A DNA stretch of 64,000 nt from Clostridia bacterium (GTDB lineage: Bacteria; Bacillota; Clostridia; Christensenellales; Aristaeellaceae): NCBI GenBank assembly GCA_017447185.1, contig JAFSOC010000008.1, positions 1 to 64,000 of the forward strand, in the 5' to 3' direction. Below are positions 1,182 to 31,057 of this stretch, piece after piece. The translations under genes and the position numbers were made by a program. Under the pieces are notes generated by a model. It saw only the letters and a list, made by a program, of their open reading frames with translations. It made no database searches and was not told where the DNA came from. Each line of letters begins with the position of its first letter. Position 1 is the first letter of the stretch.

Positions 1182-1219
1182 CTGCCGGCACCGCCCGGCG
1201 CTGCGTATATACAGATGTC
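1182..1219 (+). promoter_or_regulatory. bipartite promoter-like element, copy A
   Basis: CTGCCG at 1182 is followed 22 bases later by CGTATATACAGATGTC at 1204-1219. The same pair occurs at 4999, 6922 and 26040 and on the minus strand at 31057. If CTGCC(A/G) is the -35 and TATATA the -10, the spacer is about 18 bases. The ATG of the GG-leader peptide at 1282 lies 78 bases after the CGTATA start. Just downstream GATGTC (1215-1220) can pair with GGACATC to form an RNA hairpin. Confidence 0.7.
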
Positions 1220-1281
1220 AGCGGTGAAACGCCGGGACATCCAAGAAAGATCAGGCGCACAGCGCTGGAAAGGATAAGAAA

Positions 1282-1446
1282 ATGAAGACAGAAAAAGATA
1301 TGAAGGAACTGGAGCAGGTCAACGGCGGAGGATTCTACGAAGAGATGATGAAAATCCTGCATAAGATCATCCCGAATCCCTATGATACCGATCAGGATGA
1401 AAAAACGGACAAAACGGATGCCAGGACTGGCCGCAGGAAATGCTGA
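1282..1446 (+). CDS. small peptide with double-glycine leader
   Basis: The 54-residue ORF begins MKTEKDMKELEQVNGGG. An acidic amphipathic leader with E-L-E-Q-V-N-G-G is the classic form of a bacteriocin/RiPP export leader cleaved after GG by a C39 peptidase-ABC exporter. The predicted cargo, FYEEMMKILHKII then a charged tail, carries no recognised domain. The ribosome site is weak (AAGGAT). Promoter-like copy A lies upstream. Downstream in the -1 frame an open segment (about 1400-1538) encodes a Cys-containing stretch, so the 3' end of the gene may be frameshifted. The ORF is too short for most gene callers. Confidence 0.6.
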   Translation: MKTEKDMKELEQVNGGGFYEEMMKILHKIIPNPYDTDQDEKTDKTDARTGRRKC

Positions 1447-1572
1447 CCTGCACCGAAAACGATCCCACGGAGGGCTGCGAAAGCGGCTCTCTTTTTCGTA
1501 TGGCCATTCCGGCCCGGTACGGTCCGGCAGGGCGCTGACCGGGACAAGGAAAGTCCGGAATTTCCGGGATTT

Positions 1573-1716
1573 ATGAGAGAACTGCTGATGATCGCAAAAG
1601 ATACCGGATATGATCTGTCCGAGGAGCAGCTGAACGCTCTGTCGGGCGGCTGGTGCGGCTTCGATTGCGGCCCGTATAATCCGGACTGCCCGTACTTTGT
1701 TCCGAAGGAAGGATAA
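1573..1716 (+). CDS. cysteine-containing peptide with double-glycine leader
   Basis: The 47-residue ORF begins MRELLMIAKDTGYD and continues LSEEQLNALSGG, then a 21-residue cargo with three cysteines (WCGFDCGPYNPDCP). The leader resembles Nif11/bacteriocin-type leaders with E-E-x-L-x-x-L-S-G-G, and the small Cys-, Pro- and aromatic-rich core looks like a RiPP or small disulfide peptide. The ribosome site is poor. It is in the same frame as the peptide at 1282 and may be translated from the same mRNA. No modification enzyme lies nearby. Function is unknown. Confidence 0.55.
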   Translation: MRELLMIAKDTGYDLSEEQLNALSGGWCGFDCGPYNPDCPYFVPKEG

Positions 1717-1782
1717 GGGAGCGGGATGCATGACGACTGAGTTTCGTATCAGAATGAATATGAATGAAGGGTCAGAAACAGC

Positions 1783-1816
1783 AAAAGGAATGTGCGGAAA
1801 CTGCACATTCCCTTTT
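1783..1816. terminator. bidirectional terminator
   Basis: GGAATGTGC (1787-1795) and GCACATTCC (1803-1811) form a 9-bp stem with a 7-base loop, with TTTT on the right and AAAA on the left. It sits between the forward peptide genes and the convergent CotH-family gene and can serve both. Confidence 0.8.
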
Positions 1817-1832
1817 ATTCTGCTGAGGAGGA

Positions 1833-3908
1833 TCAGATGGCTTCGGGCGGCATCGGCGGTTTCGGGCCGAAGTATTTCTCCATCTGCTTATTGTTCAGGC
1901 CGAAGGCTTTTTTCGTAAAATCCCACAGCCGCGTCGGCCGTTTCCGGATCACGTTCCGGAGGCGGTCCACCCGCTTCAGCCAGTATTTATAGGCGCCTTC
2001 CGCTGTCGTCGGCACTTCGGAAATAACGTTTTTGTCGTTCTCCGGGCCCCAGCGGGTCCAGTGCCGTTCCATCTCCGGCTCAATCAGCGCCACCAGTTCC
2101 TCCAGCACTTCCATCATGGTGTCCGTTGTCAGTTTCCGGTAGATTTCGCCGTAGATGGTCAGGAACCGGTCCTTGTATTCCGGAACGGTCAGCAGCTTCA
2201 GCAGGATCGTATTGTCGAAATTCAGCTGACCCATGCCGCTCTTCTTGGTATAACTCTTCGGACTGTTGAATCCGGAGTCCCAGAGGCCGTAGTCCAGATC
2301 GTTGATCAGCCATTTCCATTTGCTGCCGGGAGCGTTCAGGCGGTAGATGCGGAAATTGCCGATATCGCTGTTGCCGAAGAACATCTCGAAAGCCATAAAC
2401 TCGAAATAATTGTCCACGTCGACATTATCCAGGATATACTGCAGATCCTCCTTCTTTTTAGCCGGCTTGCCGGCCTTGATCTTTTTGATCATGGCCTTGT
2501 ATTCCGAATTGGATCCGTTCTTCACGCTGCCGTTTGCGGTCAGCAGGTCCAGCTGATCCGCCTCTTCCAGGTCCACCCCTTCAAACTGCGCGACCATATA
2601 CTCGTCCACCCGCTCCCGCAGGTTCATATGGCCCCAGTACTGACCATTCAGATAGACCGCATAGGGTTTCCACGCCTGATGGGCCACGGTGCTCCCGCAC
2701 AGATCCATCAGCCGGCTCTGGAACCCGTCCTGCAGGCGGGTCCACATGCAGTCATTCCCGCTGTTGCGCAGCACGAAGCTTTTGTATTCCTCATAATCCC
2801 GGTCCGGGAACAGTTTTGCCTTGAACGTTTTTTCACCGTATTTGCTTTTCGCTTTGAATTTGAAGCTCTTCTGGGGCATGTCCAGCGAATAGTCGCCGTT
2901 CAGGGAGATATCCGCGCCCTGGCTGAGGATCTTTTTTCCGGCGTCGTCGTACATCTCCACATAGCTTTCATATTTAACCCCGGAGTTTTTCACTTTCCGG
3001 TAAACCGTATTTTTGAAGGGCAGGCCCGATTTTTTATTGGCGTTCTTTCCGACGGTCAGCATTCCCCGCTCAGGATCCCACAGGTCATCCGGATCCACCG
3101 TGACGGATACCACCGGCAGGCTGTGATCCGCATGGACAAAGAACGTACCGGTGAGCGTATCGCCAGGCCGGATCCTCCCATCCGCGAAAGCCCGGGCCCG
3201 GATCACGGCTGTAGCGGCAATTTCCAGCGTTTCCCCGCCGTAAGGCGCGGATTGCTGCGTCGGCTCCGATCCGTCCAGGGTATAAAACACCTGCGTGCCT
3301 TCCGGGACGATGATCCGCAGATGTACGGCCGAATCATAAAAACCGGGCTCCTCTGAGAACGACGGTGCCGCGGCATATCCCGGAAAACTGCCGCTGTTTG
3401 CCGCAAAAGGCGTGGGCGGGTCAAAACAGTACAGGCCACCGTCCTCCGGACTCCGGCCGAAGGAGATATCCGTCTTCATCTCCGGAAGGGTGATCCGGTC
3501 CTGTACGGCGCCTTCCGCGTCCGTCAGGAGAATCACCTCGCCGCTCTTTTTGCTGATATTGAAAGGCGCGAAAAGCTGCGCGTCCCCGCGCTGATCCGCG
3601 TCCTTATCGCACAGAATGACCCTGTACTCTCCGGGACGAATCGTTGTTCCGTCGGGGAACTGCCATTTCCGCGGCTTTTCCGGATTGTTGCTCAGCCCCC
3701 ATCCGCTCAGATCCACGGGAGTATCTCCGGAATTGAAGATCTCAACCCAATCGGTAAAGCCTGCTTTCGGATACGTGGCGACCGAATCATTGCTGGCCAT
3801 CACTTCGCTGATCCTGATCATGGGGTGAAGCGCTTCCTCCGCGGCCGCCGTATTCCAGGCCAGCACCGCCAGAAGCAGAACCGCAGTCATGATGATAAGC
3901 CGTTTCAT
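1833..3908 (-). CDS. secreted CotH kinase family protein with lamin-tail domain
   Basis: The 691-residue protein has an N-terminal signal peptide (MKRLIIMTAVLLLAVLAW...A). Residues about 26-135 resemble a lamin-tail domain (IRISEVMASN, DWVEIFNSG, DLSGWGLSN). A chitobiase C-terminal-like segment follows with YTLDGSEPT at about 200-210. The C-terminal two thirds carry CotH-type features such as NGQYWGHMNLRERVDEY, FGNSDIGN and KWKWLINDLDYG. CotH proteins are atypical kinases that phosphorylate secreted proteins, and they often accompany VTC/DUF4956 genes; here those are 37 kb away at 40148-41599. The start at 3908 has GGAGG ahead of it, which rules out the longer upstream frame. Confidence 0.9.
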   Translation of the reverse strand: MKRLIIMTAVLLLAVLAWNTAAAEEALHPMIRISEVMASNDSVATYPKAGFTDWVEIFNSGDTPVDLSGWGLSNNPEKPRKWQFPDGTTIRPGEYRVILCDKDADQRGDAQLFAPFNISKKSGEVILLTDAEGAVQDRITLPEMKTDISFGRSPEDGGLYCFDPPTPFAANSGSFPGYAAAPSFSEEPGFYDSAVHLRIIVPEGTQVFYTLDGSEPTQQSAPYGGETLEIAATAVIRARAFADGRIRPGDTLTGTFFVHADHSLPVVSVTVDPDDLWDPERGMLTVGKNANKKSGLPFKNTVYRKVKNSGVKYESYVEMYDDAGKKILSQGADISLNGDYSLDMPQKSFKFKAKSKYGEKTFKAKLFPDRDYEEYKSFVLRNSGNDCMWTRLQDGFQSRLMDLCGSTVAHQAWKPYAVYLNGQYWGHMNLRERVDEYMVAQFEGVDLEEADQLDLLTANGSVKNGSNSEYKAMIKKIKAGKPAKKKEDLQYILDNVDVDNYFEFMAFEMFFGNSDIGNFRIYRLNAPGSKWKWLINDLDYGLWDSGFNSPKSYTKKSGMGQLNFDNTILLKLLTVPEYKDRFLTIYGEIYRKLTTDTMMEVLEELVALIEPEMERHWTRWGPENDKNVISEVPTTAEGAYKYWLKRVDRLRNVIRKRPTRLWDFTKKAFGLNNKQMEKYFGPKPPMPPEAI

Positions 3909-3998
3909 TCTTTGTTTCCTCCGATCATCGGTGGTACAGACAGCGCTCTTTGCATACGGCCTGATTATACCACAGAAAATGATGGAGGAGTGACCGGA

Positions 3999-4032
3999 GG
4001 GAACGAAAAGGGTCGTCGTCCCCATCGTTCCC
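3999..4032. repeat. dispersed GGGAACG...CGTTCCC inverted repeat
   Basis: GGGAACG (3999-4005) and CGTTCCC (4026-4032) flank a GTCC-containing centre. Similar elements lie at 15000-15030 and 13148-13218, and a related one at 18636-18740. It abuts the -35 of the next gene. Confidence 0.6.
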
Positions 4033-4061
4033 TTGACGGAGAGGGTATAAAAACGTATACT
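4033..4061 (+). promoter_or_regulatory. sigma-70-type promoter of the Trp-repeat protein
   Basis: TTGACG (4033-4038), a 17-base spacer and TATACT (4056-4061) place a transcription start near 4068, about 60 bases before the ATG at 4128. Confidence 0.7.
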
Positions 4062-4127
4062 TGAACCGTGGCAAAAACTATTACAAGCGAATAAATATCT
4101 GAGAAGAATGTATAGGAGTGCAGTCAT

Positions 4128-4853
4128 ATGAAGTATGTGAAAAAAGCATTTGCGCTGGTTCTGATTCTTTGCCTTGTTTCCACGGCGGCTTTCGCGGAAG
4201 GGGAAAACAAGGATATCTTCGGGCAGATCGGCGACTGGTTCAGCCATGCGTGGGAGGACACGACCAAATGGGTGGGTCAGGCATGGGAAGACGCATCCAA
4301 ATGGGTGAGCCAGGCATGGGACGATTCCAGCAAATGGGTGGCCCAGGCCTGGAAGGACAGCTCCGAGTGGATCTCCGGCAACTGGTCCGCCTTTACGGTA
4401 TGGCTGCGGGAGATCACCTGGGACAACCCCTACACCTGGATTGAAAAGCTGGTGCAGGAGAAGGGAAGCGCGGCATACGACCGGTATGCCGGGATCCGGG
4501 ATTTCCTGAAGGGGAATCCGGACGCGGCGGCCATCAAAGAAAAGCTGTATGCGGTGCTGGCGGAACTGTCGCTGCCGGAGGAAGAGAAGGACAAGGTATG
4601 GGAGGTCTTTGGCAGCTGGGCTTCGGAGCATCACGTGACCGCGGAGCAGACGGCGGTGCTGGCCATTCCCTTTGCGGAGCGGCTGAACATTACCGGGGCG
4701 GCGGCGCTGGGGACGGATATTGAAATCAACGGGCCGGTGGTTGCAAGGTACCTGGTGACGGTGCTGGATGCCATACAGGTGAACAGCCATGAGGACGCGG
4801 AGGCGCGGATCAATGTGCTGAAGAACAGCCTGGAGGGGCTGGCGAAACCATAA
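4128..4853 (+). CDS. secreted protein with tryptophan-rich 11-residue repeats
   Basis: The 241-residue protein has a signal peptide ending near AFA-EG (about residues 1-23). Residues about 37-85 hold four imperfect 11-residue repeats of the form A-W-[EDK]-D-[TAS]-[TS]-[KE]-W-[VI]-x-Q (AWEDTTKWVGQ, AWEDASKWVSQ, AWDDSSKWVAQ, AWKDSSEWISG). This pattern suggests amphipathic helices with Trp faces. The rest is acidic and probably helical. The ribosome site is AGGAG. I recognise no family; a surface or membrane-interacting role is inference. Confidence 0.8.
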   Translation: MKYVKKAFALVLILCLVSTAAFAEGENKDIFGQIGDWFSHAWEDTTKWVGQAWEDASKWVSQAWDDSSKWVAQAWKDSSEWISGNWSAFTVWLREITWDNPYTWIEKLVQEKGSAAYDRYAGIRDFLKGNPDAAAIKEKLYAVLAELSLPEEEKDKVWEVFGSWASEHHVTAEQTAVLAIPFAERLNITGAAALGTDIEINGPVVARYLVTVLDAIQVNSHEDAEARINVLKNSLEGLAKP

Positions 4854-4880
4854 GATCCTTCGCTGCGCTCAGGATGACAC
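4854..4880 (+). repeat. REP-like intergenic palindrome, copy 1
   Basis: GATCCTTCGCTGCGCTCAGG followed by ATGACAC lies directly after a stop codon. A near-identical copy, with one base inserted, follows metH at 52661. A decayed version ending CTCAGAATGAC lies at about 4950-4965. The rest of the gap to 5085 holds only promoter-like copy B. Confidence 0.7.
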
Positions 4881-4998
4881 AGTGGGGGAATGGGAGTTCC
4901 TTTGGGGACTTGAAGATTTATGGGGATTCATCGACGCGGGCTGACGCCCTTGCTCAGAATGACAAAATAAGTTGAGAATTATTTGGCAGGAAGATTTA

Positions 4999-5035
4999 CT
5001 GCCAGGGTCGAATTTTGAACGTATATACAGGTGTC
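4999..5035 (+). promoter_or_regulatory. bipartite promoter-like element, copy B
   Basis: CTGCCA at 4999 and CGTATATACAGGTGTC at 5020-5035 are 21 bases apart. The downstream ATG (5085) is 65 bases from the CGTATA start. This copy drives a Sec-secreted protein rather than a GG-leader peptide. Confidence 0.7.
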
Positions 5036-5084
5036 GCGCAAAAATCATTAAAATAATAAAGACAAAAAAAGGAGGAACCCCAAA

Positions 5085-5657
5085 ATGAAGAAACTGATCG
5101 CTGTACTGACCGTCCTGTGCCTGCTGTGCGCATCCTTTGCCGCGCTGGCCGAAGCCCCTGCCACCGAAGTGCAACCCGAATTCACCTTTGGAAACGGAAT
5201 CAAGTTTGGCATGAGCATGGCAGAAGTGACCGCCATCGCCGGCACGCCCAATGAAACGGACAATGATGACACCAAGGGCCTGGTCACCTTCTCCGAGCTG
5301 GAGTACAAGCAGGTTCCCGATCCCATGCTGGACAACACGCCGGTGGACACGTCCTTCCTGTTTGTGAATGACAAGCTGGTTGCGATCCGCTTCGACCTCG
5401 ACACCAAGAGCGTTGCGTATGAAAAGGTGCAGGCCGCGCTGGCGGAAGCCACGAAGAGCGAAGGCACCATGCTGGATATGGCCCTGCTGGGCAACGCCAT
5501 CTACGCGGTGGACGATGACGGAACGCCGGAGCTGAACAGCCTGAACTACGTTGATCCGATTTTCAATGTGGTGGTCGTGCTGGAGCTGGACAAGGAAGGC
5601 GACGATGTGGACATCACCATCCTGGACATGAATGCGGAATATCTGACCGGGAAGTAA
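5085..5657 (+). CDS. secreted protein with SmpA/BamE-like motif
   Basis: The 190-residue protein has a signal peptide (MKKLIAVLTVLCLLCASFAALAEA). After it comes FGMSMAEVTAIAGTPNETDNDD, which resembles the F-G-M-[ST]-x-x-E-V-x-x-x-x-G-x-P motif of SmpA/OmlA-like folds seen in many small Clostridia secreted proteins. Two such halves may be present. The rest is acidic with alternating hydrophobic strands. The ribosome site is AGGAGG. The gene stands alone behind promoter-like copy B, which it shares with the GG-leader peptides. Molecular function is unknown. Confidence 0.8.
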   Translation: MKKLIAVLTVLCLLCASFAALAEAPATEVQPEFTFGNGIKFGMSMAEVTAIAGTPNETDNDDTKGLVTFSELEYKQVPDPMLDNTPVDTSFLFVNDKLVAIRFDLDTKSVAYEKVQAALAEATKSEGTMLDMALLGNAIYAVDDDGTPELNSLNYVDPIFNVVVVLELDKEGDDVDITILDMNAEYLTGK

Positions 5658-5779
5658 AACATCAAGGAAAAAAAGGCGACTCCTATGAATATACAAAGGA
5701 ACACATTATCATAGGAGAGCCGGATGAATTCATCGCGGATATCCTCAAGTGGGTCGATGAGATTTACTCAAGGAAATAA
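5658..5779 (+). pseudogene. orphan C-terminal coding fragment
   Basis: Directly after the stop of the previous gene, in the same frame, about 40 codons read like the end of a folded protein (KEHIIIGEPDEFIADILKW, then VDEIYSRK and stop at 5777). It has no ribosome site or start of its own. The pattern is reminiscent of the last helix of an alpha/beta hydrolase. It may be a gene remnant. Confidence 0.35.
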
Positions 5780-5871
5780 TACGGAATGAAACCCGGCCGC
5801 TCCCTTCACAGAGCATGAAGGGAGCGGTTTACAACAAAAAAACAACCCACAGATCAACAAGGAGGCACAGC

Positions 5872-6840
5872 GTGTTTAACAGCAAACAAAGGGAATTTGA
5901 GATGCGGATGGAGCATCTGAAAGAAAGCATGGACAAGCTCGGCGAAGAAAAGAAAGGCGTGGAAAAGAACCTGGAAAAAGCCAGGGCCAGGATTTCCGAG
6001 CTGGAGGAGAAGCTTGCCCAGACAGAAGTGGAAAGCCTGCGGAAGGAGGCCCGGGAGACCCTGGCCGAGGCCCAGGGACTGAAGGAGCTCTATCTGCGGA
6101 AAAACGAAGATTTCGACAGCAACATGCAGGCGGAGTCGGAGAACTACGCGAAGGAAGAGGTCCGCGCGCGCCGGAAGTTCAACGAGGAACTGGCGCAGCA
6201 GAAGAAGGACACGGAGGAATATGTCGGCGATACCGTTGAAACCTTCAGCGAGACCTACAACTACTACCTGAACCAGATCAAGGTGCTGATGGACGCGCTG
6301 GGCCAGGTGGCCACCAAGACCGGAAAGCATCTGTTCTCCGGGGAAGAGGTGGACCTGAAGACGGAATTCGGTCGCCGGATGATGCGCGCGCTGAAGCAGG
6401 AAGCGGAAACCCTGCCCCAGGAAGGCGGCAACAGGGTGCTGTTCGGAGCCCCGGAAGAAGAGGAAGAGAAGAAAGAGGAGCCGAAGGCAGAAGAAGTGAA
6501 GGCGGAAGAAGCGGAAGCTGCGGAAGCCGTTGAAGCGGTGGAAACCGTGGCAGCAGCGGAAGCTGTTGAAGCCGCGGCAAGTGCAGCAGCTGTGGAAGCG
6601 GCGGCGGAAGAAGCCGCGAAAGCCGTGGAAGAAGCCGTGAAAGCGGAAGTGCCTGTGGAAGAGCTGGACGAAGAAGACACGGAAAAGATGATGGAAGAGT
6701 GGGCCGCGGCGCTGAATGCCCTGGATAAGAAGTCCATCAAGGCGGAGAAGAAGGGCAAGAAGAAGGACGGGGACAAGAAGAAGAAAAAGAAAAAAGACAA
6801 GAAAGATAAGAAAGACAAGAAGAAAGATAAAAAGGATTGA
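5872..6840 (+). CDS. coiled-coil protein with Ala/Glu-rich linker and poly-Lys/Asp tail
   Basis: The 322-residue protein starts at GTG with AAGGAGG seven bases upstream; an ATG at 5815 in the same frame has no ribosome site. Residues about 1-120 are a heptad-rich coiled coil (E/K/R/L), 121-185 a further helical region, about 190-270 a low-complexity Ala/Glu/Val segment, and the last 40 residues almost pure Lys/Asp. There is no signal peptide or membrane helix, so it is probably cytoplasmic. The basic tail could bind nucleic acid or the membrane surface, but that is inference. No family recognised. Confidence 0.75.
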   Translation: MFNSKQREFEMRMEHLKESMDKLGEEKKGVEKNLEKARARISELEEKLAQTEVESLRKEARETLAEAQGLKELYLRKNEDFDSNMQAESENYAKEEVRARRKFNEELAQQKKDTEEYVGDTVETFSETYNYYLNQIKVLMDALGQVATKTGKHLFSGEEVDLKTEFGRRMMRALKQEAETLPQEGGNRVLFGAPEEEEEKKEEPKAEEVKAEEAEAAEAVEAVETVAAAEAVEAAASAAAVEAAAEEAAKAVEEAVKAEVPVEELDEEDTEKMMEEWAAALNALDKKSIKAEKKGKKKDGDKKKKKKKDKKDKKDKKKDKKD

Positions 6841-6844
6841 TGAG

Positions 6845-6884
6845 ATGAAACAGCAGTGCTCTTGATGGGGCACTGCTGTTTCAT
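6845..6884. terminator. terminator-like hairpin, first of a near-identical pair
   Basis: ATGAAACAGCAGTGC (6845-6859) pairs with GCACTGCTGTTTCAT (6870-6884), a perfect 15-bp stem. No long T-run follows. A sister hairpin at 7322-7360 differs by one base pair and closes the other side of the SH3 peptide gene. Confidence 0.6.
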
Positions 6885-6921
6885 GAAGGGGCTGCCATTG
6901 AAGCTCCGGAATAAAATACTA

Positions 6922-6959
6922 CTGCCAGGTGGGGAGTTTGCTGCGTATAAACAGATGAA
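6922..6959 (+). promoter_or_regulatory. bipartite promoter-like element, copy C
   Basis: CTGCCA at 6922 and CGTATAAACAGATGAA at 6944-6959 are 22 bases apart. This is the most diverged copy in its 3' part. The ATG at 7006 is 62 bases from the CGTATA start. Confidence 0.6.
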
Positions 6960-7005
6960 AGGTGATTTTACAGAAAATAAGGATTGCTGAGAGGAGATAA
7001 AGACA

Positions 7006-7308
7006 ATGGAAAATATGAATGAACTGAATCTGGAGCAGATGGAACAGGTGAGCGGCGGAACGACAAGAACGATCAACACCGGGAATGAGAACAAAGCGGC
7101 GATCCGCAGAGATCCCTGGATTGCCAACAAGCCGAGCAACTGGATTTGTTCGCTGGCGAACGGAACCGTCGTGGAAACCCTGAATGATGACGAGCTCTAC
7201 TACGATGCCAAGTCCAAGCGGAATTTTGTGCAGATCAAGTTTGTGGACAAGTACGGGACAGAGCGGACCGGATATGTGGCGGCGTCGCTGGTGGGGCTGC
7301 CGCGGTAA
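7006..7308 (+). CDS. double-glycine-leader peptide with SH3-like domain
   Basis: The 100-residue protein begins MENMNELNLEQMEQVSGG, a GG-type export leader very like those at 26132 and 30952. After cleavage the cargo would have 82 residues. Residues about 50-98 (WICSLANGTVVETL, RNFVQIKFVDKYGTERTGYV) fit a bacterial SH3 domain, a fold that usually binds peptidoglycan or protein. The ribosome site is GAGGAG. The gene is isolated, with promoter-like copy C upstream and paired hairpins on each side. Probable role: exported cell-wall-binding mini-protein (inference). Confidence 0.75.
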   Translation: MENMNELNLEQMEQVSGGTTRTINTGNENKAAIRRDPWIANKPSNWICSLANGTVVETLNDDELYYDAKSKRNFVQIKFVDKYGTERTGYVAASLVGLPR

Positions 7309-7321
7309 TGGGTTTTGGTTG

Positions 7322-7360
7322 ATGAAACAGCGGTGCTTTTGATGAGCACCGCTGTTTCAT
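7322..7360. terminator. terminator-like hairpin, second of the pair
   Basis: ATGAAACAGCGGTGC (7322-7336) pairs with GCACCGCTGTTTCAT (7346-7360). It duplicates the hairpin at 6845-6884 apart from one compensatory base-pair change and the loop. Confidence 0.6.
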
Positions 7361-7442
7361 TGGGAGTTGAAAAGACGGGGGAAATGGTGTAGTGTATAGT
7401 TATACACATGCAAATATCATATAATTAATAGGAGAAAGGCAT

Positions 7443-9170: not shown

Positions 9171-9194
9171 AAGAAAGAAACAGAACGAAAAAAC

Positions 9195-10703: not shown

Positions 10704-10903
10704 TGAAGGGGAAAGAACCGGAGGCACGGGAAGTGTACGGGGATATTATTGACCACCCGCACCATGTGTCGGAGAAGCATCCGAGGATGAGTTTACAGGA
10801 CCGGGCGGCGCAGTTTGCGCCGTTTGCGGCGCTGGTGGGGTATGGGGAGATGATAGAGGAAGAGGCGAAGGAGTGGGAGAAGAGGATTGAGGAGGATTTT
10901 TGA
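10703..10903 (+). CDS. YolD-like protein
   Basis: The 66-residue protein overlaps the polymerase stop by one base (TGATG). It contains HHVSEKHPRMSLQDRAAQF and FAALVGY, the YolD-like signature. YolD-family proteins are small partners encoded next to Y-family polymerases, proposed to act like UmuD, although direct evidence is thin. Tight coupling supports joint expression. Confidence 0.85.
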   Translation: MKGKEPEAREVYGDIIDHPHHVSEKHPRMSLQDRAAQFAPFAALVGYGEMIEEEAKEWEKRIEEDF

Positions 10904-10927
10904 AAAAATAAAAAGTTCGTGTATAAT
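10900..10927 (+). promoter_or_regulatory. promoter of the S15 peptidase gene
   Basis: TTGAAA (10900-10905), a 16-base spacer and TATAAT (10922-10927). The -35 overlaps the yolD stop codon. The ATG at 10977 is 50 bases downstream. Confidence 0.65.
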
Positions 10928-10976
10928 GGAGGAAGCCTGAGAAAAGCCAAATATATCCCGGAGGTGTGTCTGAAAG

Positions 10977-13139: not shown

Positions 13140-13147
13140 GGGGAAAA

Positions 13148-18671: not shown

Positions 18672-18740
18672 AGGCGCTGGAAAATGATATTCAAGTAAGA
18701 CTGCGGTAACGACAGGGGACGGAACGAAAGGGAACGAAAA

Positions 18741-21254: not shown

Positions 21255-21306
21255 GAAGCTGGAATATTTTTTGGATGACATTTTAAAAAGCAAGGAGCGA
21301 AAAGCA

Positions 21307-23118: not shown

Positions 23119-23170
23119 AAACCGGCGACGGCCGGAGCACGGGGGAGACAGGACAAAGGAGGACCGAAGG

Positions 23171-24358: not shown

Positions 24359-24392
24359 CGCAGCCCGGCGCCGGAAAGGGGACAAGGGTTTT

Positions 24393-25448
24393 ATGCCACT
24401 GGAATGCGGAAAGAAGATCATCATCCTGTATATCCTGACGATCCTGCGGAAATACTCGGACAGGAACCATCCCATGACGCAGCAGCAGATCGCGGAGAAG
24501 CTGCAGGAGGACTACGACATCCAGGTGCACCGGGCGACGATCAAGCGGAACCTGGACGACCTGATCGCGGCGGACTACGGGATCCGGTCCAAGGAAGTGG
24601 CGCGGAGCTACAAGGACCGGGCAACGGGAATGGAAGAGGACAACACGATCAACACGAACTTCTACTACGAGCACGAATTCTCCGAGGCGGAACTGCACAT
24701 GCTGATCGACGGCCTGCTGTTTTCCCGGTCGGTGCCGTACAAGGAGCGGAAGGCGCTGATCGACAAGCTGAGCGAGCTGTGCAGCTCCCACTTCAGCAAG
24801 CGGATCCAGAAGGTGCACAGCATGAACTCGGACTCGCCCCAGAACGAGAAGCTGTTCATCCACATCGAAAAGCTGGAGGCGGCGATCCAGGACGGGAGGC
24901 AGATCGAGATCTCCTACGGATACTACGGGACGGACCTGAAGCTGCACGAATCGCTGAACCCGGACGGGACGGTGAAGAAGCAGCTGCTGAACCCGTACCA
25001 GCTGGTGGCCAGCGAGGGGCGGTACTACCTGATCTGCAACAAGGACAACTATGACAACGTGGCCAACTACCGGATTGACCGGATCATGAGCGTGAAAATC
25101 CTGAAGACGCCGGTGAAGCCGAAGAACCAGGTGACCGGCCTGGAGAACGGGCTGAAGCTGCAGGAATACGTGTACCAGCACGTGAACATGTTCGCCGGGG
25201 AACCGGAGATGGTTGAATTCGAGATACCGAAGAAGAACGTGAGCCTGGTGATCGACTTCTTCGGGAAGCACGCGTCCTTCTTCGACAAGGGGGACGGGAC
25301 GGTGAGCTGCCACATCAAGACCAGCCGGGAGGCCATGAAGCACTGGGCGGCTCAGTTCGCCACGATGGTGAAGGTGATCAGCCCGGAGAGCCTGGTGGAG
25401 GAGATCCGGGAGGAGATCCGGGCGGCGGCGGAAAACTACGGAGTGTGA
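24393..25448 (+). CDS. WYL domain transcriptional regulator
   Basis: The 351-residue protein has an N-terminal winged helix (PMTQQQIAEKLQEDYDIQVHRATIKRNLDDLI) and a WYL domain in the second half (IEISYGYYGTDLKL, LVASEGRYYLICNKDNYDNVANYRIDRIM). A C-terminal WCX-like segment follows. WYL proteins sense ligands such as nucleotides or nucleic acid and often control defence or DNA-damage genes. It is between a DUF2130 gene (34 bases) and a SLOG gene (12 bases). Confidence 0.9.
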   Translation: MPLECGKKIIILYILTILRKYSDRNHPMTQQQIAEKLQEDYDIQVHRATIKRNLDDLIAADYGIRSKEVARSYKDRATGMEEDNTINTNFYYEHEFSEAELHMLIDGLLFSRSVPYKERKALIDKLSELCSSHFSKRIQKVHSMNSDSPQNEKLFIHIEKLEAAIQDGRQIEISYGYYGTDLKLHESLNPDGTVKKQLLNPYQLVASEGRYYLICNKDNYDNVANYRIDRIMSVKILKTPVKPKNQVTGLENGLKLQEYVYQHVNMFAGEPEMVEFEIPKKNVSLVIDFFGKHASFFDKGDGTVSCHIKTSREAMKHWAAQFATMVKVISPESLVEEIREEIRAAAENYGV

Positions 25449-25460
25449 GGAAGGATCAGC

Positions 25461-26009
25461 ATGCCGTCTGAAGCGGAGAAACGACTGCACCGGTGCTGCC
25501 TGGCGGGGCACCGGCCGGAGAAACTGGACATCAGCGAGGAAGAGGTGCAGGCATGGCTGCGGAAGCAGATTGACGCGGCCATCGGGGACGGATACCGGAC
25601 ATTCCTGTGCGGGGTGGAGCCGGGGACGGACATCATCGCGGCGCAGATCATAAGGGAGAAAAAGGAAAAGGACCCGGAACTGCACCTGATCTGCGCGGTG
25701 CCCTGGCCGGACTACGAGGAGGACTGGAACTTCATCTGGCAGGTGCAGTACCGGTTCCTGCTGGAGCAGGCGGACATCGTGAAATATTTCGCCAAAGCAA
25801 AGACGGAGGATGCGGGCATCTTCCGGAAACGGCGGGAATGGATGCTGGACCACTGCCGGCGGCTGATCGCCTACTGCAACGGGACGCCGGGCGGGACCTG
25901 GACCACCATCGAGGACGCGGTGGACCGGAAGATGGAAATCATCACAAACATCCACGAGATGGTGGAGGAATACCGGGAAGGACTGGCAAAGGGGGGAGGA
26001 CGGGCGTAA
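25461..26009 (+). CDS. SLOG family protein (DUF1273/YpsA-like)
   Basis: The 182-residue protein has CCLAGHRPEKL at the N-terminus and FLCGVEPGTDIIAAQIIREKK, the G-G-x-D-x-[AG] type nucleotide-binding loop of YpsA/DUF1273 SLOG proteins, and ends with an RREWMLDHCRRLIAYCNG strand-helix. SLOG domains bind nucleotide-derived ligands; Bacillus YpsA affects cell division. Location beside a WYL regulator suggests a ligand-sensing partnership, which is inference. Confidence 0.85.
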   Translation: MPSEAEKRLHRCCLAGHRPEKLDISEEEVQAWLRKQIDAAIGDGYRTFLCGVEPGTDIIAAQIIREKKEKDPELHLICAVPWPDYEEDWNFIWQVQYRFLLEQADIVKYFAKAKTEDAGIFRKRREWMLDHCRRLIAYCNGTPGGTWTTIEDAVDRKMEIITNIHEMVEEYREGLAKGGGRA

Positions 26010-26039
26010 AAATTTTTTAAAGAAAATGGGACCCGTTCA

Positions 26040-26077
26040 CTGCCACCGGGGCAAACCGATACGTATATACAGGTGTC
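26040..26077 (+). promoter_or_regulatory. bipartite promoter-like element, copy D
   Basis: CTGCCACCGGG at 26040 and CGTATATACAGGTGTC at 26062-26077, 22 bases apart. GGTGT (26072) can pair with AACACC downstream as the start of the mRNA leader. The ATG at 26132 is 70 bases from the CGTATA start. Confidence 0.75.
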
Positions 26078-26131
26078 AGGCGAAAAACACCGGACAACAG
26101 GAAAGAAAAAAATTGAGAGGAGATCAGAAAT

Positions 26132-26389
26132 ATGGATATCAATGAAGTCAATGTGAACGAACTGGAACAGGCAGTAGGCGGACGCGGCGGATACCGCAAG
26201 CCCCCGGAACCCATCTTCGGACTGGAGATCTACCGGATCCAGGCTGGCGACAACCTGACCAAAATCGCCCGGAAGTACGGCACCACCTGGATGCACCTGC
26301 AGGACCTGAACGCGGACGTGATCCCGGACAAGAACGACATCACCACCGGATACTACATCTACGTACCGGCCCGCGAAGGAAACGGCTGA
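26132..26389 (+). CDS. double-glycine-leader LysM peptide, paralogue 1
   Basis: The 85-residue protein begins MDINEVNVNELEQAVGG, a GG-type leader, then RGGYRKPPEP and a LysM domain (about residues 33-78: YRIQAGDNLTKIARKYGTTW, LNADVI, NDITTGYYIYVP). LysM binds N-acetylglucosamine polymers such as peptidoglycan. It shares about half of its residues with the minus-strand gene at 30952, including GGRGGY after the leader. Ribosome site GAGGAG; promoter-like copy D upstream; strong terminator downstream. Likely exported by a peptidase-ABC transporter encoded elsewhere. Confidence 0.8.
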   Translation: MDINEVNVNELEQAVGGRGGYRKPPEPIFGLEIYRIQAGDNLTKIARKYGTTWMHLQDLNADVIPDKNDITTGYYIYVPAREGNG

Positions 26390-26410
26390 GAACTGAATTT
26401 GACAGAACGG

Positions 26411-26436
26411 GTTCCCCGGCGGAAACGCCGGGGAAC
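26411..26436 (+). terminator. terminator of the LysM peptide gene
   Basis: GTTCCCCGGCG (26411-26421), loop GAAA, CGCCGGGGAAC (26426-26436): a perfect 11-bp GC-rich stem with a tetraloop, followed by TACTTTATACTTT. Confidence 0.8.
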
Positions 26437-26553
26437 TACTTTATACTTTACTTTTGCGGAAAAAATGGGATATACTGATATGGTTCGAAAGAAAATGATT
26501 CCCGTCCGCGCTGTATTATGCGGAGACGGAAACAATAAAGGAGGTTCCAAGGA

Positions 26554-27783
26554 ATGAAGAAATTTTTGGCTTTCCTGATGGCAATGGCAATGCTGCTGAC
26601 GTGCGCGGCGGCCGTGGCTGAGAGCACCGCCGCGGTGACCCTGGACGTGATGCAGGACTACCGGGCCGACGACCCGATCCTGGCACAGTACGGCGAGCCG
26701 GCGCCCGCGGGACAGGAGGACCTGCCCGTGATCCTGATCAAGCACAAGAAGCACATGAAGCTGAACGTCACGACGCAGCCGAGCACCGTGAAGAGTGCGA
26801 AGATCAGCGCCTACAGCGAAGACAGCAAGATCGTCAGCGTGATCGGCACAACCATCACCGGCGAGAAAGTGGGCCAGACGGTGGTTCACCTGATCCGGGA
26901 AAAGGAACCGAAGGCGGAACTGGCGGTGCGCGTGATCGTGTACATGCCGGTGCGGAAGGTTACGATCAAGGCCCCCGTCAAGCACGTGGAGCCCACGGAA
27001 AGCATCCAGCTGACAGCGCAGGTGGCCCCGGGAAGCGCGAACGTGCAGACGGTTACCTGGTATTCCTCCAATGAAAACATCGCGACGGTGGACGCGACCG
27101 GCAAGGTGACCGGCGTCAAGCGGGGCGCGGTGCGGATCTCGGCTGTGGCGGACGACGGAAGCTTCGCCCGGGACAGCGTGCGGATCCAGGTGACCCGGGC
27201 CATGGGCGTGGGCGACCTGATTGAGGATCAGTTCGCGGCGGAACCGGAAGAAGTGCAGGATGTGCTGCCGGTGGACGGATCGGACGAGAACTACTACGCG
27301 CGGCTGGATGAATACGACCCGACGGACAACACGGTGCTCGTGAGCATCATGGACCGGATCACGATCGACAAGGAAGAAGCGGAAAGCCTGAAGGTGGGCT
27401 CCAACATCCAGATCGGCGACGAGACCGTGACGGTGGAAACGCTGCAGGCGGACAAGTTCAGCATCTGCATCAACGAAATGTACTACCTGGACTATACGGA
27501 CGGGGGCGGCGAACTGACGGCCAGCTTCATGAGCATGCCGCTGTACGAAACGGTGGTCAGCGGGATCATGGAAGTGGCGGACGACCTGGTGTTCGTGGAC
27601 GGGATCGATCCGGAGACCGGCACGCCCCTGGACGAGCCGGTAACCCGCACGGCCGCGGAATTCAAGGAAATGATCCAGGACCTGGACGATATCGGATTCA
27701 ACGCGGACAACGTGTATATCCGGTTTGACGAGGATACCGGCGTGCTGAAGCGCGTGGAACGGTACTACACGCCCTTCCAGTAA
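26554..27783 (+). CDS. secreted protein with Ig-like (BIG_2) domain
   Basis: The 409-residue protein has a signal peptide (MKKFLAFLMAMAMLLTCAAAVAE). Residues about 60-135 form a first beta domain, and residues about 135-220 a bacterial Ig-like group 2 domain (PTESIQLTAQVAPGSANVQTVTWYSSNENIATVDATGKVTGVKRGAVRISA). The acidic C-terminal half is of unknown fold. BIG_2 domains occur in surface adhesins. Ribosome site GGAGG; terminator at 27803. Confidence 0.85.
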   Translation: MKKFLAFLMAMAMLLTCAAAVAESTAAVTLDVMQDYRADDPILAQYGEPAPAGQEDLPVILIKHKKHMKLNVTTQPSTVKSAKISAYSEDSKIVSVIGTTITGEKVGQTVVHLIREKEPKAELAVRVIVYMPVRKVTIKAPVKHVEPTESIQLTAQVAPGSANVQTVTWYSSNENIATVDATGKVTGVKRGAVRISAVADDGSFARDSVRIQVTRAMGVGDLIEDQFAAEPEEVQDVLPVDGSDENYYARLDEYDPTDNTVLVSIMDRITIDKEEAESLKVGSNIQIGDETVTVETLQADKFSICINEMYYLDYTDGGGELTASFMSMPLYETVVSGIMEVADDLVFVDGIDPETGTPLDEPVTRTAAEFKEMIQDLDDIGFNADNVYIRFDEDTGVLKRVERYYTPFQ

Positions 27784-27802
27784 GATTATAGGGAATTGAC
27801 AA

Positions 27803-27830
27803 GGGACTGCCCCGCGGGGCAGTCCCTTTT
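27803..27830 (+). terminator. rho-independent terminator
   Basis: GGGACTGCCCC pairs with GGGGCAGTCCC around CG, followed by TTTTAT. It follows the BIG_2 gene by 19 bases. Confidence 0.85.
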
Positions 27831-27858
27831 ATGATGCGGCATATGCTGATAAATTTGC

Positions 27859-27887
27859 TTGCGAATTCGCATGCGATCATGTATAAT
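27859..27887 (+). promoter_or_regulatory. promoter and probable operator of the toxin-antitoxin pair
   Basis: TTGCGA (27859-27864), 17-base spacer, TATAAT (27882-27887). The 10-bp palindrome GCGAATTCGC (27861-27870) overlaps the -35, where an antitoxin-type autorepressor would act. Confidence 0.65.
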
Positions 27888-27919
27888 CAGAGAGAAGATG
27901 ATGAAAAGGAGAAAAGCTT

Positions 27920-28174
27920 ATGCCTGCGATCAAACCGATTTCCGATCTGAGGAATTACACGGAAGTACTGAAGGAAGTGGATGCTGTCAGCCGGGTATAT
28001 CTGACGCGAAACGGGCATGGAGCTTATGCCATCATGTCCATCGAAGAGGCGGATGAGTTGGATCGCCTGAAAGCGGCTCATTCTATTGTTGCCGATCTGA
28101 ACAGGTCAAAGGAGAGAGCTGAAAAGGAAGGCTGGGTCAGCGACGATGAAATCCAGGCAATCATGAGGGACTGA
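27920..28174 (+). CDS. Phd/YefM-type antitoxin
   Basis: The 84-residue protein opens with KPISDLRNYTEVLKEV, the Phd/YefM DNA-binding segment, and YLTRNGHGAYAIMSIEEADELDRL, followed by an acidic helix that would wrap the toxin. It neutralises the downstream RelE/ParE toxin and represses its own promoter. AAGGAG precedes the ATG. The pair is visibly richer in A and T than its surroundings, which suggests recent transfer. Confidence 0.88.
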   Translation: MPAIKPISDLRNYTEVLKEVDAVSRVYLTRNGHGAYAIMSIEEADELDRLKAAHSIVADLNRSKERAEKEGWVSDDEIQAIMRD

Positions 28175-28176
28175 TC

Positions 28177-28524
28177 ATGAGGAAAACAGTCTACGCCCCT
28201 GACTACAAGGAAAAACTCATTCGATTACGCAACAACCTGGATGCGGAATATGGACGGAATGTAAGGCTGAAGATTTTTTCGGAAATCAATCAGAGAATCC
28301 AAAGACTGAAGGAATATCCATTCCTTGGTACATCTGTACGCGCCATCTATGGGATTGATTGTGATTATTATTTCATCCATATCTCAAAGAACGTGATTTT
28401 CTATGATGTTGAAGATAAGCAGATAAGCATTCTTAACATGTATAACGAAAGGGAAGATTATCTCATCAAATTCCTGGGGAACATGGCAAAAATGCACGAA
28501 GAAGAAACCCAGTTCTCCTGCTGA
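28177..28524 (+). CDS. RelE/ParE-family toxin
   Basis: The 115-residue basic protein starts two bases after the antitoxin stop. YKEKLIRLRNNLDAEYGRNVRLKIFSEINQRIQRLKEYPFLGTSVRAI followed by YYFIHISKNVIFYDVEDKQISILNMYNEREDY is the RelE/ParE fold with the C-terminal strand R/Y residues. RelE types cut mRNA at the ribosome and ParE types poison gyrase; the sequence alone does not decide. Low GC as for its partner. Confidence 0.85.
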   Translation: MRKTVYAPDYKEKLIRLRNNLDAEYGRNVRLKIFSEINQRIQRLKEYPFLGTSVRAIYGIDCDYYFIHISKNVIFYDVEDKQISILNMYNEREDYLIKFLGNMAKMHEEETQFSC

Positions 28525-28582
28525 AAAGATTGTGAAAACGCTTTTACGGATGCTTCTTTACTGAGACAATCAAATAAACCGA

Positions 28583-28810
28583 TTACTTCCCGTCGTCGTC
28601 CGGGTCGATTTCCCTGGCGGCTTCCACGAACTCGTCCAGGTCTTCCTCGGAGAGCTCCAGGCCCAGGATGTTCTTGACCGCCTCGGGAATCAGGCCGAGG
28701 GCGATCTCATTGGTACGGGTTTCGGCGATGCGGACGGCTTCTTCCTTAATCTTATCCGCCAGCTCGGGATTGGCCTGGAGGAGCTCGGTGATTTTTTCCA
28801 GATTGCTCAT
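28583..28810 (-). CDS. small acidic helical protein, unknown
   Basis: The 75-residue protein (MSNLEKITELLQANPELADKI onward) is acidic and predicted all-helical. The NPELADKIKEE start recalls Nif11-like leader helices, but there is no GG cleavage site. It has AAGGAG upstream and begins 11 bases after the stop of the GG-leader ORF at 28822-29034, so the two form a small operon. Function unknown. Confidence 0.65.
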   Translation of the reverse strand: MSNLEKITELLQANPELADKIKEEAVRIAETRTNEIALGLIPEAVKNILGLELSEEDLDEFVEAAREIDPDDDGK

Positions 28811-28821
28811 AATGATTCTCC

Positions 28822-29034
28822 TTAAATTCTGTTGTACTTGAGATTCATGCGGGTGATGAAATTGTTGATCTTCTTTTCCACTTTGTTCTGCTCATCCCAC
28901 TTGCCGGCGAATTCCAGCTCTTGCCAGAGATCATCCAGGGCGCGGTATTCCTCGCGCTCCTCTTCGGTGAGGGTATCGAAGGTCCAGCGGCCGCCGGCGG
29001 CCATTGCCATCTGCTTCATATTCAGTTCATTCAT
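28822..29034 (-). CDS. small protein with double-glycine-type leader
   Basis: The 70-residue protein begins MNELNMKQMAMAAGGRW, close to the MNELNLEQMEQVSGG leader of the gene at 7006. The cargo, rich in E, W, L and K, is a charged helical segment (LTEEEREEYRALDDLWQELE) with no recognised domain. AAGGAG precedes the ATG. I do not see the CTGCCA/CGTATATACAGG element upstream, so control may differ from the LysM and SH3 peptides. The real start is inside a much longer frame. Confidence 0.6.
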   Translation of the reverse strand: MNELNMKQMAMAAGGRWTFDTLTEEEREEYRALDDLWQELEFAGKWDEQNKVEKKINNFITRMNLKYNRI

Positions 29035-29227
29035 ATGCAGTTCAACTCCTTTACAGTTATTTTGCCACAAGAAGCGGCAAAAAACAATCCCCGAAAGCAG
29101 GGGAAGCGCCGCGGGACAGACGGGAAAAAACGGACATTTTTCGTGACAGAGGAGCGGGAGGTGTGATATACTGAGCGCGCATTCCAAACTGCATATGATC
29201 TGACACAATGGAAGGAGTCTTTTTGTC

Positions 29228-30343
29228 ATGAAGAAAATACTTTCCCTGATTTTGGCCATTGCCATGCTGCTGACGGTGATCCCGGCGGTGGCGGAGAACG
29301 GAACGGAAGAAAAGGGCGGGCTGCAGAGCCTGCTGAACGGCCTGGGCGAATCGGGCGGCGGGAACAGCGGCGACGCCGGCAGCCTGCTGAGCGGCCTGGG
29401 CAGCCTGCTGGGCGGCGGAAACGGGGACGGCACGAACCTCTCCGCGATGCTGAAGAACCTGCTGCAGAAGGCGGGCAGGGACCTGAAGGGCATCAACGTG
29501 GACGCTATCGTGGACATGCTGAAGGAGAAGCTGGGCGGCCTGCTGGGCGGCGCGGCCAAGGGCACCGGGGAAACCGGCGGTGAACCGGACCTGAACGCAC
29601 TGACCAGCCTGCTGGGCGGCCTGGGCGAGAGCAGCGGAGAGAACAAGGAAGGCGCGGCAACCGGCGAGGACAACGGGCAGATCATGGCCCTGCTGGGCAG
29701 CCTGCTGGGCGGCAGCACCGGGAACGGCGCGGAAGGCGGAGAGGAAGAGCCCGACTGGGACGCGCTGCTGGCCGCCTACAAGGAAAGCGACGAATACAAG
29801 GACGCCCTGGGCCGCTGGAACGCGCTGGCGCTGCACCTGAACGAGGTGTTCCCCGGACTGGCTGCCGGCGACGAGCAGGTGATCGTGCTGTCAGAAGTGT
29901 TCAAACTCGGGGAGAGCGACCCCAACGTGGAATTCGGCTGGTACGTGCTGGCAAACTACAGAAAGAGCGAAAACGGGAAGAACCTGACGATGGTGAGCGC
30001 CGGCGGCGCCGTGGAACTGATCACCTACGAGAAGCAGGAAGACGGCACCTTCAAGGTGGCCAGTGCGATCACCGCCCTGGACGGAAGCTCCATGTTTGAA
30101 AGCATGGTGAAGGGGATGTGCGACCGGTACGGCGTAACCTACGAGGACTACATCTCCGCCATGAAATGGCGGGAGTTCAACGAGGTCTCCTTCCTGCTGG
30201 AGTTCATGAGTGATCATCCGGAATACGAGCGGATTGAATACAAGGGCGCGATGGTAACCGCGAAGGAACTGGACGAGATGCAGAACAAAATGTATGAAGA
30301 AACGGCGGCGGCCCTCGAGGCGGAGACCGGTGCCGCACAGTAA
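29228..30343 (+). CDS. secreted Gly/Leu-repeat protein
   Basis: The 371-residue protein has a signal peptide (MKKILSLILAIAMLLTVIPAVAE). Residues about 30-180 contain repeated LLGGLGES, LLSGLGSLLGGG and LLGSLLGG units, separated by Gly/Asn/Ser runs. The C-terminal half is a non-repetitive acidic domain (about 185-371). The hydrophobic Gly-Leu repeats suggest self-assembly or membrane association (inference). Ribosome site AAGGAG. No homologous family is recognised. Confidence 0.8.
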   Translation: MKKILSLILAIAMLLTVIPAVAENGTEEKGGLQSLLNGLGESGGGNSGDAGSLLSGLGSLLGGGNGDGTNLSAMLKNLLQKAGRDLKGINVDAIVDMLKEKLGGLLGGAAKGTGETGGEPDLNALTSLLGGLGESSGENKEGAATGEDNGQIMALLGSLLGGSTGNGAEGGEEEPDWDALLAAYKESDEYKDALGRWNALALHLNEVFPGLAAGDEQVIVLSEVFKLGESDPNVEFGWYVLANYRKSENGKNLTMVSAGGAVELITYEKQEDGTFKVASAITALDGSSMFESMVKGMCDRYGVTYEDYISAMKWREFNEVSFLLEFMSDHPEYERIEYKGAMVTAKELDEMQNKMYEETAAALEAETGAAQ

Positions 30344-30432
30344 ACGCGGGGAGAAGCCAGGTGAGAACCACGGGGACGGTTCCATTGGCTGCCCTGAAGG
30401 GAGCCAGAGAAACACGTCCCCATGGTCACCCG

Positions 30433-30460
30433 CCCCGGCGATGGAGTCCGGGGTTTTTTT
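30433..30460 (+). terminator. rho-independent terminator
   Basis: CCCCGG (30433-30438) and CCGGGG (30448-30453) form a stem, followed by seven T. It ends the Gly/Leu-repeat gene. A second hairpin, GCGGCGC/GCGCCGC (30475-30494), lies just before the next ribosome site. Confidence 0.8.
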
Positions 30461-30515
30461 GCGCGCAAAAAAATGCGGCGCCGGGCAGCGCCGCAAGGGG
30501 TAGGGGGGATAGAGT

Positions 30516-30662
30516 ATGGAAATTAATGATCAGAAAGTGCACGGTGGAGCCGCCGGCCACATCAATGGAGAGGGCGCCGGCAGGGGCGGCGGATTCCGCA
30601 AGGGCGGCGCAGGAGGTGAGAACGAAGGAGAGGCTCCCGTTTTCACGGGAGCCAGGATATGA
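30516..30662 (+). CDS. small glycine-rich peptide with GG motif
   Basis: The 48-residue ORF begins MEINDQKVHGGAAGHI and continues with Gly/Arg/Glu-rich sequence (GRGGGFRKGGAGG). The first ten residues and GG resemble a short double-glycine leader. A GGGG-type ribosome site lies nearby. It is followed by the convergent LysM peptide gene. Too short for certainty, but it lies among other GG peptides. Confidence 0.4.
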   Translation: MEINDQKVHGGAAGHINGEGAGRGGGFRKGGAGGENEGEAPVFTGARI

Positions 30663-30700
30663 AGAAGATTCTGTTGGGTTGGAGTGTACCCCTTCAGGGA

Positions 30701-30952
30701 TTAAGCATGGGGGCCGGGAACATAGATCCAGTAGCCATCGGTGATGTCGTTGGCGTTCTTGATCACGTCCGCGTTCATTTCCTTCAGATCACGCCAGGTG
30801 ACGCCGTAGCGCTTCGCAATGCGGATCAGGGTGTCGTTCTTCTTGATCTGATACAGATCACAGCCAAAGCGGGGAGCGGGCTTCTTGGCGTAGCCGCCTC
30901 TGCCACCGGATACCTTTTCCATTTCGTTGAGGTTCATTTCGTTCATTTCCAT
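30701..30952 (-). CDS. double-glycine-leader LysM peptide, paralogue 2
   Basis: The 83-residue protein begins MEMNEMNLNEMEKVSGG, then RGGYAKKPAPRFG and a LysM domain (YQIKKNDTLIRIAKRYGVTWRDL, MNADVI, NDITDGYWIYVP). It is a clear paralogue of the gene at 26132. AAAGGAG precedes the ATG, and promoter-like copy E (31057-31020) lies upstream on the same strand. Expected to be exported and to bind glycan strands of the cell wall. Confidence 0.8.
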   Translation of the reverse strand: MEMNEMNLNEMEKVSGGRGGYAKKPAPRFGCDLYQIKKNDTLIRIAKRYGVTWRDLKEMNADVIKNANDITDGYWIYVPGPHA

Positions 30953-31019
30953 GATTCTGATCTCCTTTCAGATGATTTATCTTTGGTTGATTTATTTTAC
31001 CGGAGTCCGTTATCTGCCG

Positions 31020-31057
31020 GACACCTGTATATACGCAGAACAAAGGCCGGGTGGCAG
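31020..31057 (-). promoter_or_regulatory. bipartite promoter-like element, copy E
   Basis: On the minus strand CTGCCACCCGG starts at 31057 and CGTATATACAGGTGTC runs from 31035 to 31020, 22 bases later. The CGTATATACAGGTGTC block matches copies B and D base for base. The ATG at 30952 is 83 bases from the CGTATA start. Confidence 0.75.

Follow-up and report, generated by a model that had tools for sequence, protein, structure and literature searches.

The 64-kb stretch of DNA analysed here (the window) carries five dispersed copies of a two-part element, each upstream of the start codon of a gene. The question raised by this locus is what reads the element and which genes it controls. An earlier note on this DNA had suggested that a single regulator or an alternative sigma factor controls exported peptides. 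At a probability of roughly 0.85, comparison of sequences points to a promoter that would be read by RNA polymerase with one ECF sigma factor.

Element Copies and Genes in the Window

The five copies were located by pattern scan and are listed below.

1182..1209, plus strand: promoter element A, CTGCCG, spacer of 16, CGTATA
4999..5025, plus strand: promoter element B, CTGCCA, spacer of 15, CGTATA
6922..6949, plus strand: promoter element C, CTGCCA, spacer of 16, CGTATA
26040..26067, plus strand: promoter element D, CTGCCA, spacer of 16, CGTATA
31030..31057, minus strand: promoter element E, CTGCCA, spacer of 16, CGTATA

The scan bore out the sites and spacing of the five CTGCC(A/G)-N15/16-CGTATA elements claimed in the earlier note. 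Measured start to start, CTGCC and CGTATA were 22, 21, 22, 22 and 22 apart in copies A to E. CGTATA started 78, 65, 62, 70 and 83 nt before the start codon, which is the range of 62-83 that had been claimed. Copies B, D and E had been said to share one block base for base, and CGTATATACAGGTGTC is indeed identical in all three; copy A has one mismatch. With up to three mismatches allowed CGTATATACAGGTGTC had four matches in the window (1204+, 5020+, 26062+, and 31020-31035 on the minus strand) compared to a mean of 0.09 in shuffled windows, and none of 100 shuffles reached four. Copy C (6944+) reads CGTATAAACAGATGAA, with four differences. A scan of the window alone with two mismatches allowed gave 20 matches compared to 5.7 expected by chance, which leaves only the near-perfect copies as evidence. 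Rfam gave no match at the elements. The Rfam gathering score was reached in the window only by a T-box leader (54453-54687, minus strand) and a TPP riboswitch (54797-54899, plus strand), which are divergent.

The genes behind the elements are as follows.

1282..1446, plus strand: gene A, 54 aa, GG leader (MKTEKDMKELEQVNGG)
5085..5657, plus strand: gene B, 190 aa, Sec-type signal peptide by eye, without a GG leader
7006..7308, plus strand: gene C, 100 aa, GG leader, weak matches to Bacteriocin_IIc and SH3_3 below cut-off
26132..26389, plus strand: gene D, 85 aa, GG leader and LysM domain (Pfam 35.0 bits, cut-off 20.9)
30701..30952, minus strand: gene E, 83 aa, GG leader and LysM domain (Pfam 38.8 bits, cut-off 20.9)

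Genes A, C, D and E thus carry the GG leaders claimed for four of the five genes, and gene B was classed as Sec-type by eye. No Pfam or NCBIfam family was found above cut-off for gene B. The NHLP and Nif11 precursor models (TIGR03793, TIGR03798) matched none of the four GG proteins of the window, the sole GG proteins scanned. Two more small frames with GG-leader-like starts are present at 1573-1716 (plus strand) and 28822-29034 (minus strand). Neither frame was found to have its own element, the latter having been included in the element scan of the GG genes.

Occurrence in the Genome

The genome scan that the earlier note had proposed was run on the own genome (2.91 Mb, assembly 88.7% complete) with the reversed pattern as a control. 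CTGCCN{15,18}CGTATA gave 27 strict matches compared to 7 for the control. Twenty of the 27 sites precede a small gene with a start codon and a stretch resembling a ribosome-binding site, and seven lie inside stop-free frames of at least 312 codons; the element is therefore not as frequent inside genes as before them. The start-to-start distance at the 20 promoter-like sites was 22 in 17 and 21 in three. Seventeen of these sites precede genes for GG-leader proteins; the other three lie before a gene for a Sec-type protein, the sigma operon and a gene for another small protein. The 17 GG-leader targets are 54-100 aa in length and eight are LysM-like by sequence (two of these Pfam-scanned). When the downstream AC was required and the last base of the -10 was left free, with 16-17 nt counted from CTGCC, 22 matches were found compared to one in the control. 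This longer pattern added six sites: three belong to GG genes, one is in a long frame, and the other two are copies of a promoter with its leader that are not followed by an intact GG gene.

A search profile was built from the leaders of the 17 element-bearing GG proteins and found 35 places in the own genome, of which 30 were read. An element with at most one mismatch was present at 17 of the 30, which are the 17 genes that built the profile. Among the 13 hits outside the profile three had an element at two mismatches and ten had none, five of the ten lying in two tandem GG clusters. The possibility that all GG genes form one regulon was rejected, as the element occurs at just three of these 13 hits. 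The predicted regulon takes in many GG genes, yet not all, and Sec-type proteins also belong to it. The leader consensus of C39 peptidase substrates (PMC6363468) is typically Leu(-12)-X3-Glu(-8)-Leu(-7) before GG, GA or GS. By alignment the proteins of the regulon fit this leader, with L(-12)-X3-E(-8)-L(-7) followed by GG, GA or GS.

By eye, a stable hairpin opens about 20 of the 45 5' leaders that were folded, the mean z against mononucleotide shuffles being -1.6. A common structured 5' leader was rejected as a defining trait as the sigma operons and many other targets are without the hairpin. Short hairpins of varying sequence are visible just past the predicted start site, for example at 1212-1242, 26070-26090 and 31007-31029 (minus strand) in the window. 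Near-identical copies of promoter and 5' leader are found at C23:1938-1967 and C23:6969-6998, both on the minus strand, and no intact GG-leader gene lies behind them.

A mobile or repeated sequence might have been copied together with its promoter, in which case the regulon would be an echo of duplication. Some LysM genes do share close 5' leaders, and the two C23 copies without an intact GG gene would fit such copying. The downstream genes are mostly unrelated past the leader, the boxes are separated by spacers that vary among the copies, and in other families the boxes are found again in different surroundings. This explanation is largely refuted by the unrelated spacers and is considered highly improbable.

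Candidate Sigma Factor and Exporter

Sigma70_r2 had 14 matches in the own genome and the element was present at one locus only, counting the gene and 1.5 kb flanks. This locus is outside the window and encodes an ECF sigma factor (contig C7:222-722, minus strand). Its matches to Sigma70_r2 (62.9 bits), Sigma70_r4 (45.1) and Sigma70_r4_2 (44.6) were all above cut-off, as was that to TIGR02937 (103.7 bits, cut-off 42.9). The C7 sigma operon starts with a protein of 67-69 aa, whose frame overlaps the sigma start. Divergent from the operon are genes for a short HlyD-like protein, a TIGR03796 peptidase transporter (911.9 bits, cut-off 853.3) and a TIGR03797 partner (736 bits, cut-off 709.4). The HlyD-like protein scored 19.1 bits against TIGR03794 (cut-off 156.2) and matched positions 1-37 of 421 only. 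Peptidase_C39 had a single match in the own genome, at 88.7% completeness, and this was in the C7 transporter. Elsewhere in the genome, six ECF sigma genes are present within about 9 kb (C26:5564-13778, in the region C26:4000-15300), most of them followed by a longer protein. No element was found at these six genes.

The SigW promoter of Bacillus subtilis is given as TGAAACN16,17CGTA(T) in PMC2375139. A CGTA(T) -10 at such a distance, as in SigW, indicates an ECF-type promoter. CTGCCA would then be the -35 box and CGTAT(A/C) the -10 box, with a spacer of 15-16 nt. The sigma gene and the gene for the 67-69 aa protein just upstream would share the copy of the element at this operon as their promoter, so that the sigma factor would control its own synthesis. 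The C7 ECF is predicted to switch on some Sec-type proteins and about 20 dispersed small proteins that have GG leaders, many of them LysM-like. The GG proteins would most likely be cleaved and exported by the divergent NHLM-type peptidase ABC transporter, which adjoins the sigma operon and holds the sole C39 peptidase found. We infer that the C7 ECF reads the element and that the C7 exporter handles the GG peptides. Comparison of sequences established the element and the genes it precedes, its presence ahead of the sigma operon, the agreement between its numbers and the ECF gene across genomes, and the single exporter.

Distribution in the Genus

Orthologs of the ECF sigma factor, called as the best hit per genome at E 1e-53 or better and at least 56% identity, were present in 29 of 45 genomes of the same genus. 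CTGCCN{16,17}CGTATNNAC had 185 sites (control 21) in the 29 ECF-positive genomes and 16 sites (control 10) in the 16 ECF-negative genomes. The numbers of elements differed between the two groups (Mann-Whitney p 5e-6), also when only genomes at least 80% complete were compared (21 and 7 genomes, p 4e-4); these p-values serve as guides, the genomes being related and mean completeness being 77% in the ECF-negative group compared to 84% in the ECF-positive group. Two genomes (G005 and G017) were without an ECF ortholog yet had one strict site each. The C39 peptidase was present in 27 of the 29 ECF-positive and 7 of the 16 ECF-negative genomes, with a weak hit in G005 scored as absent.

TGCC-N16/17-CGTAT was found upstream of 19 of the 29 orthologous sigma operons compared to 0.02 expected. 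The other ten were without the element; these exceptions include a one-base variant (L081) and two loci with the element on the other strand (L095 and L096). Thirty-two sites were read in 30 loci of the genus, two of them being window copies. They precede eight GG genes, two operons of the small protein and sigma factor, 11 genes classed as Sec-type by eye, and 11 that were other or gave nothing clear. The consensus for the own genome and the genus is aCTGCCA, 15-16 nt, CGTATAtACaggTG. The stricter form CTGCCAN{15,16}CGTATANAC occurred in 19 of 61 genomes, all 19 belonging to the genus, and in none of 24 genomes of other families.

Occurrence in Other Families

An alignment of the small protein of the sigma operon was searched against a collection of species genomes. 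The search turned up 128 relatives, and 80 of these were retained. These are mostly from ruminant-gut Clostridia and include Lachnospiraceae (with Butyrivibrio), Oscillospiraceae, Erysipelotrichaceae and Treponema. An ECF gene was directly downstream of the small protein in 55 of the 80 loci. GCC-N15-19-CGTAT[AC] was present within 200 nt upstream in 46 of the 80 compared to 0.14 expected, including all four Treponema loci, and 34 loci had no promoter match. A transporter at least 60% identical to the C7 peptidase transporter was within reach in 14 of the 80 loci, many of the contigs being short. The sole frequent clusters of neighbouring genes were the small protein (61 loci), ECF (52) and ABC transporters (38), the last joining exporter-type ABC transporters in general and not NHLM as such. 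No membrane anti-sigma gene family recurred among the neighbour clusters. A small STAS-like protein, of the anti-sigma antagonist type by eye, was seen near the operon of the small protein and ECF in ten of the 80 loci and also in L061, where it is the first frame past the element.

The pattern TGCCAN{14,16}CGTATAAA had 34 sites and none in the control in four Lachnospiraceae genomes (three Butyrivibrio and one AC3007). Culturable Butyrivibrio FCS014 and CB08 are among the carriers of the system. The eight other genomes searched had eight sites in all (control 1), with no site in a fifth Lachnospiraceae genome (G080) or in two Treponema genomes. Twenty-three of the 34 sites were read: GG-leader genes follow 12 of them (three being tandem and Nif11-like by eye), members of the small-protein family follow four, Sec- or lipoprotein-type genes follow three, and four had no clear target. 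The three tandem Nif11-like genes are in Lachnospiraceae AC3007 (L209, G070:C11:3191-4214) and each has its own TGCCA-CGTATAAA promoter. The consensus in other families is tTGCCA, mostly 15 nt, tCGTATAAA. ACAGGTG after CGTATA is conserved in the genus and was not seen in the other families. The part shared between the genus and the other families is the two boxes.

The copies could also be sigma-A promoters with a -10 of TATA(T/A)A and a poor -35, united as a regulon by a DNA-binding activator on CTGCC and/or ACAGGTG. TATAAA or TATATA in CGTATAAA/CGTATATA is like a sigma-A -10, and CTGCCA has four of the six bases of the consensus TTGACA. The base after CGTAT varies freely, with CGTATCAAC, CGTATGAAC and CGTATTAAC occurring too; the free base breaks the TATAAT-like box and CGTAT stays, as seen with patterns in which CGTAT was fixed, the invariance of CG itself coming only from the mismatch-tolerant scan of the GG genes. 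An activator site at ACAGGTG would suit its conservation downstream in the genus, and it is missing from other families which have the -35 and -10 parts. The element is also located at the ECF gene and its numbers track that gene. The sigma-A explanation is unlikely, and less likely than the ECF promoter.

The single ECF locus, the tracking across genomes and the promoters upstream of the sigma operons all support the proposal of one regulator or alternative sigma factor for exported peptides. One ECF sigma factor fits that earlier reading. Its limits are that the predicted regulon also includes Sec-type genes, that it reaches three of the 13 other GG hits, and that the ACAGGTG part is confined to the genus.

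The Small Protein of the Sigma Operon

The small protein was recovered in 27 of the 29 genus loci, and in all 27 it is before the ECF gene. Residues F, D, Q, L, I and H, followed by L36 and A46, are invariant in the 27 genus members. The N-terminal part is conserved and the C-terminal tail is variable. With A47 as -1, L36 is at -12 and V44 at -4, which is the register of a C39 leader. Among the 80 relatives an Ala-Ala pair was present in all 80, L(-12) in 73, E or D(-8) in 76, and L/M(-12) together with V/I/L/M/A(-4) in 74. Read in the canonical C39 register, with L(-12) and V/I/L(-4), 74 of the 80 have Ala-Ala as the cleavage pair. The GG-leader profile matched the small protein weakly (E 0.07), and no Pfam or NCBIfam family matched it. 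Having Ala-Ala and not GG, GA or GS at the cleavage pair, it falls outside the C39 substrate pattern. In sequence the small protein is similar to a GG leader in which Ala-Ala takes the place of Gly-Gly.

From its position in the operon, its size and its conservation the small protein may be an anti-sigma factor, at odds slightly below even. Control of such an anti-sigma activity by exporter load is a speculative proposal and rather unlikely. The same low likelihood is given to a more specific scheme, in which the anti-sigma factor would be built on an uncleavable GG leader (Gly-Gly to Ala-Ala) and would compete with the true substrates for the peptidase transporter, holding or freeing the ECF sigma factor according to the outcome. 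FlgM-FliA is a known pair in which the anti-sigma factor is tied to an export machine. It is proposed here as an analogy only, as the sigma class, exporter and protein family are all different.

The small protein might instead be an ordinary exported peptide precursor, for example a pheromone, which is possible at clearly less than even odds. The variable C-terminal tail behind a conserved N-terminal part would suit a precursor, as would the fusion of the domain to longer sequence in L165 and L183, its position beside GG-leader genes in L118 and L177, and the Gly-Gly after the Ala-Ala in six of the 80 relatives. That no ECF was detected directly downstream in 25 of the 80, some at contig ends, also favours a precursor. 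The position of the small protein before the ECF gene in 27 of 29 genus loci and 55 of 80 wider loci argues against it. The Ala-Ala cleavage pair in 74 and Ala-Ala pair in 80 of the 80 relatives also argue against it, as PMC6363468 gives C39 substrates as typically Gly-Gly, Gly-Ala or Gly-Ser.

Comparison to Known Systems and Significance

Double-glycine regulons of streptococci and lactobacilli (ComE/BlpR and Rgg types) are controlled by DNA-binding activators. They share with the present system dispersed GG-leader genes, one regulator and a peptidase ABC transporter. The boxes described here differ in that they form no direct repeat, one being unlike the other, and in that they go with an ECF sigma factor.

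SigW of Bacillus subtilis heads an autoregulated ECF regulon and is similar in the CGTA(T) -10, the 15-17 nt spacer and the box before the sigma operon. The -35 is CTGCCA/TTGCCA here compared to TGAAAC for SigW. Against the SigW model the C7 sigma factor reached 71.7 bits, below the cut-off of 209, and it is not classed as a SigW equivalog. The predicted targets here are GG-leader peptides, unlike those of SigW, and no membrane anti-sigma gene recurs.

Both transporters of the NHLM/NHLP export system (TIGR03796/TIGR03797, Haft et al. 2010, PMC2887384) are present above cut-off. The system differs here in that the HlyD-like gene matches just the first 37 positions of TIGR03794, and none of the four GG genes of the window matches an NHLP or Nif11 precursor model. 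The term sigma is absent from the NHLM/NHLP paper (PMC2887384). In the open-licence literature, in the portions available, neither control of GG or NHLM peptides by an ECF factor nor an anti-sigma factor that senses exporter load was found described; the major ECF classification may list the group.

In poorly studied bacteria of the gut and rumen, exported GG peptides are short, scattered and easily missed. One promoter, one sigma factor and one small partner provide a sequence handle for collecting them. If the small protein does act as proposed, peptide synthesis would be matched to export capacity by a leader-mimic, exporter-coupled sigma switch, and this switch would be common to several Firmicutes families and Treponema. 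It may represent a new kind of link between a sigma factor and an export machine.
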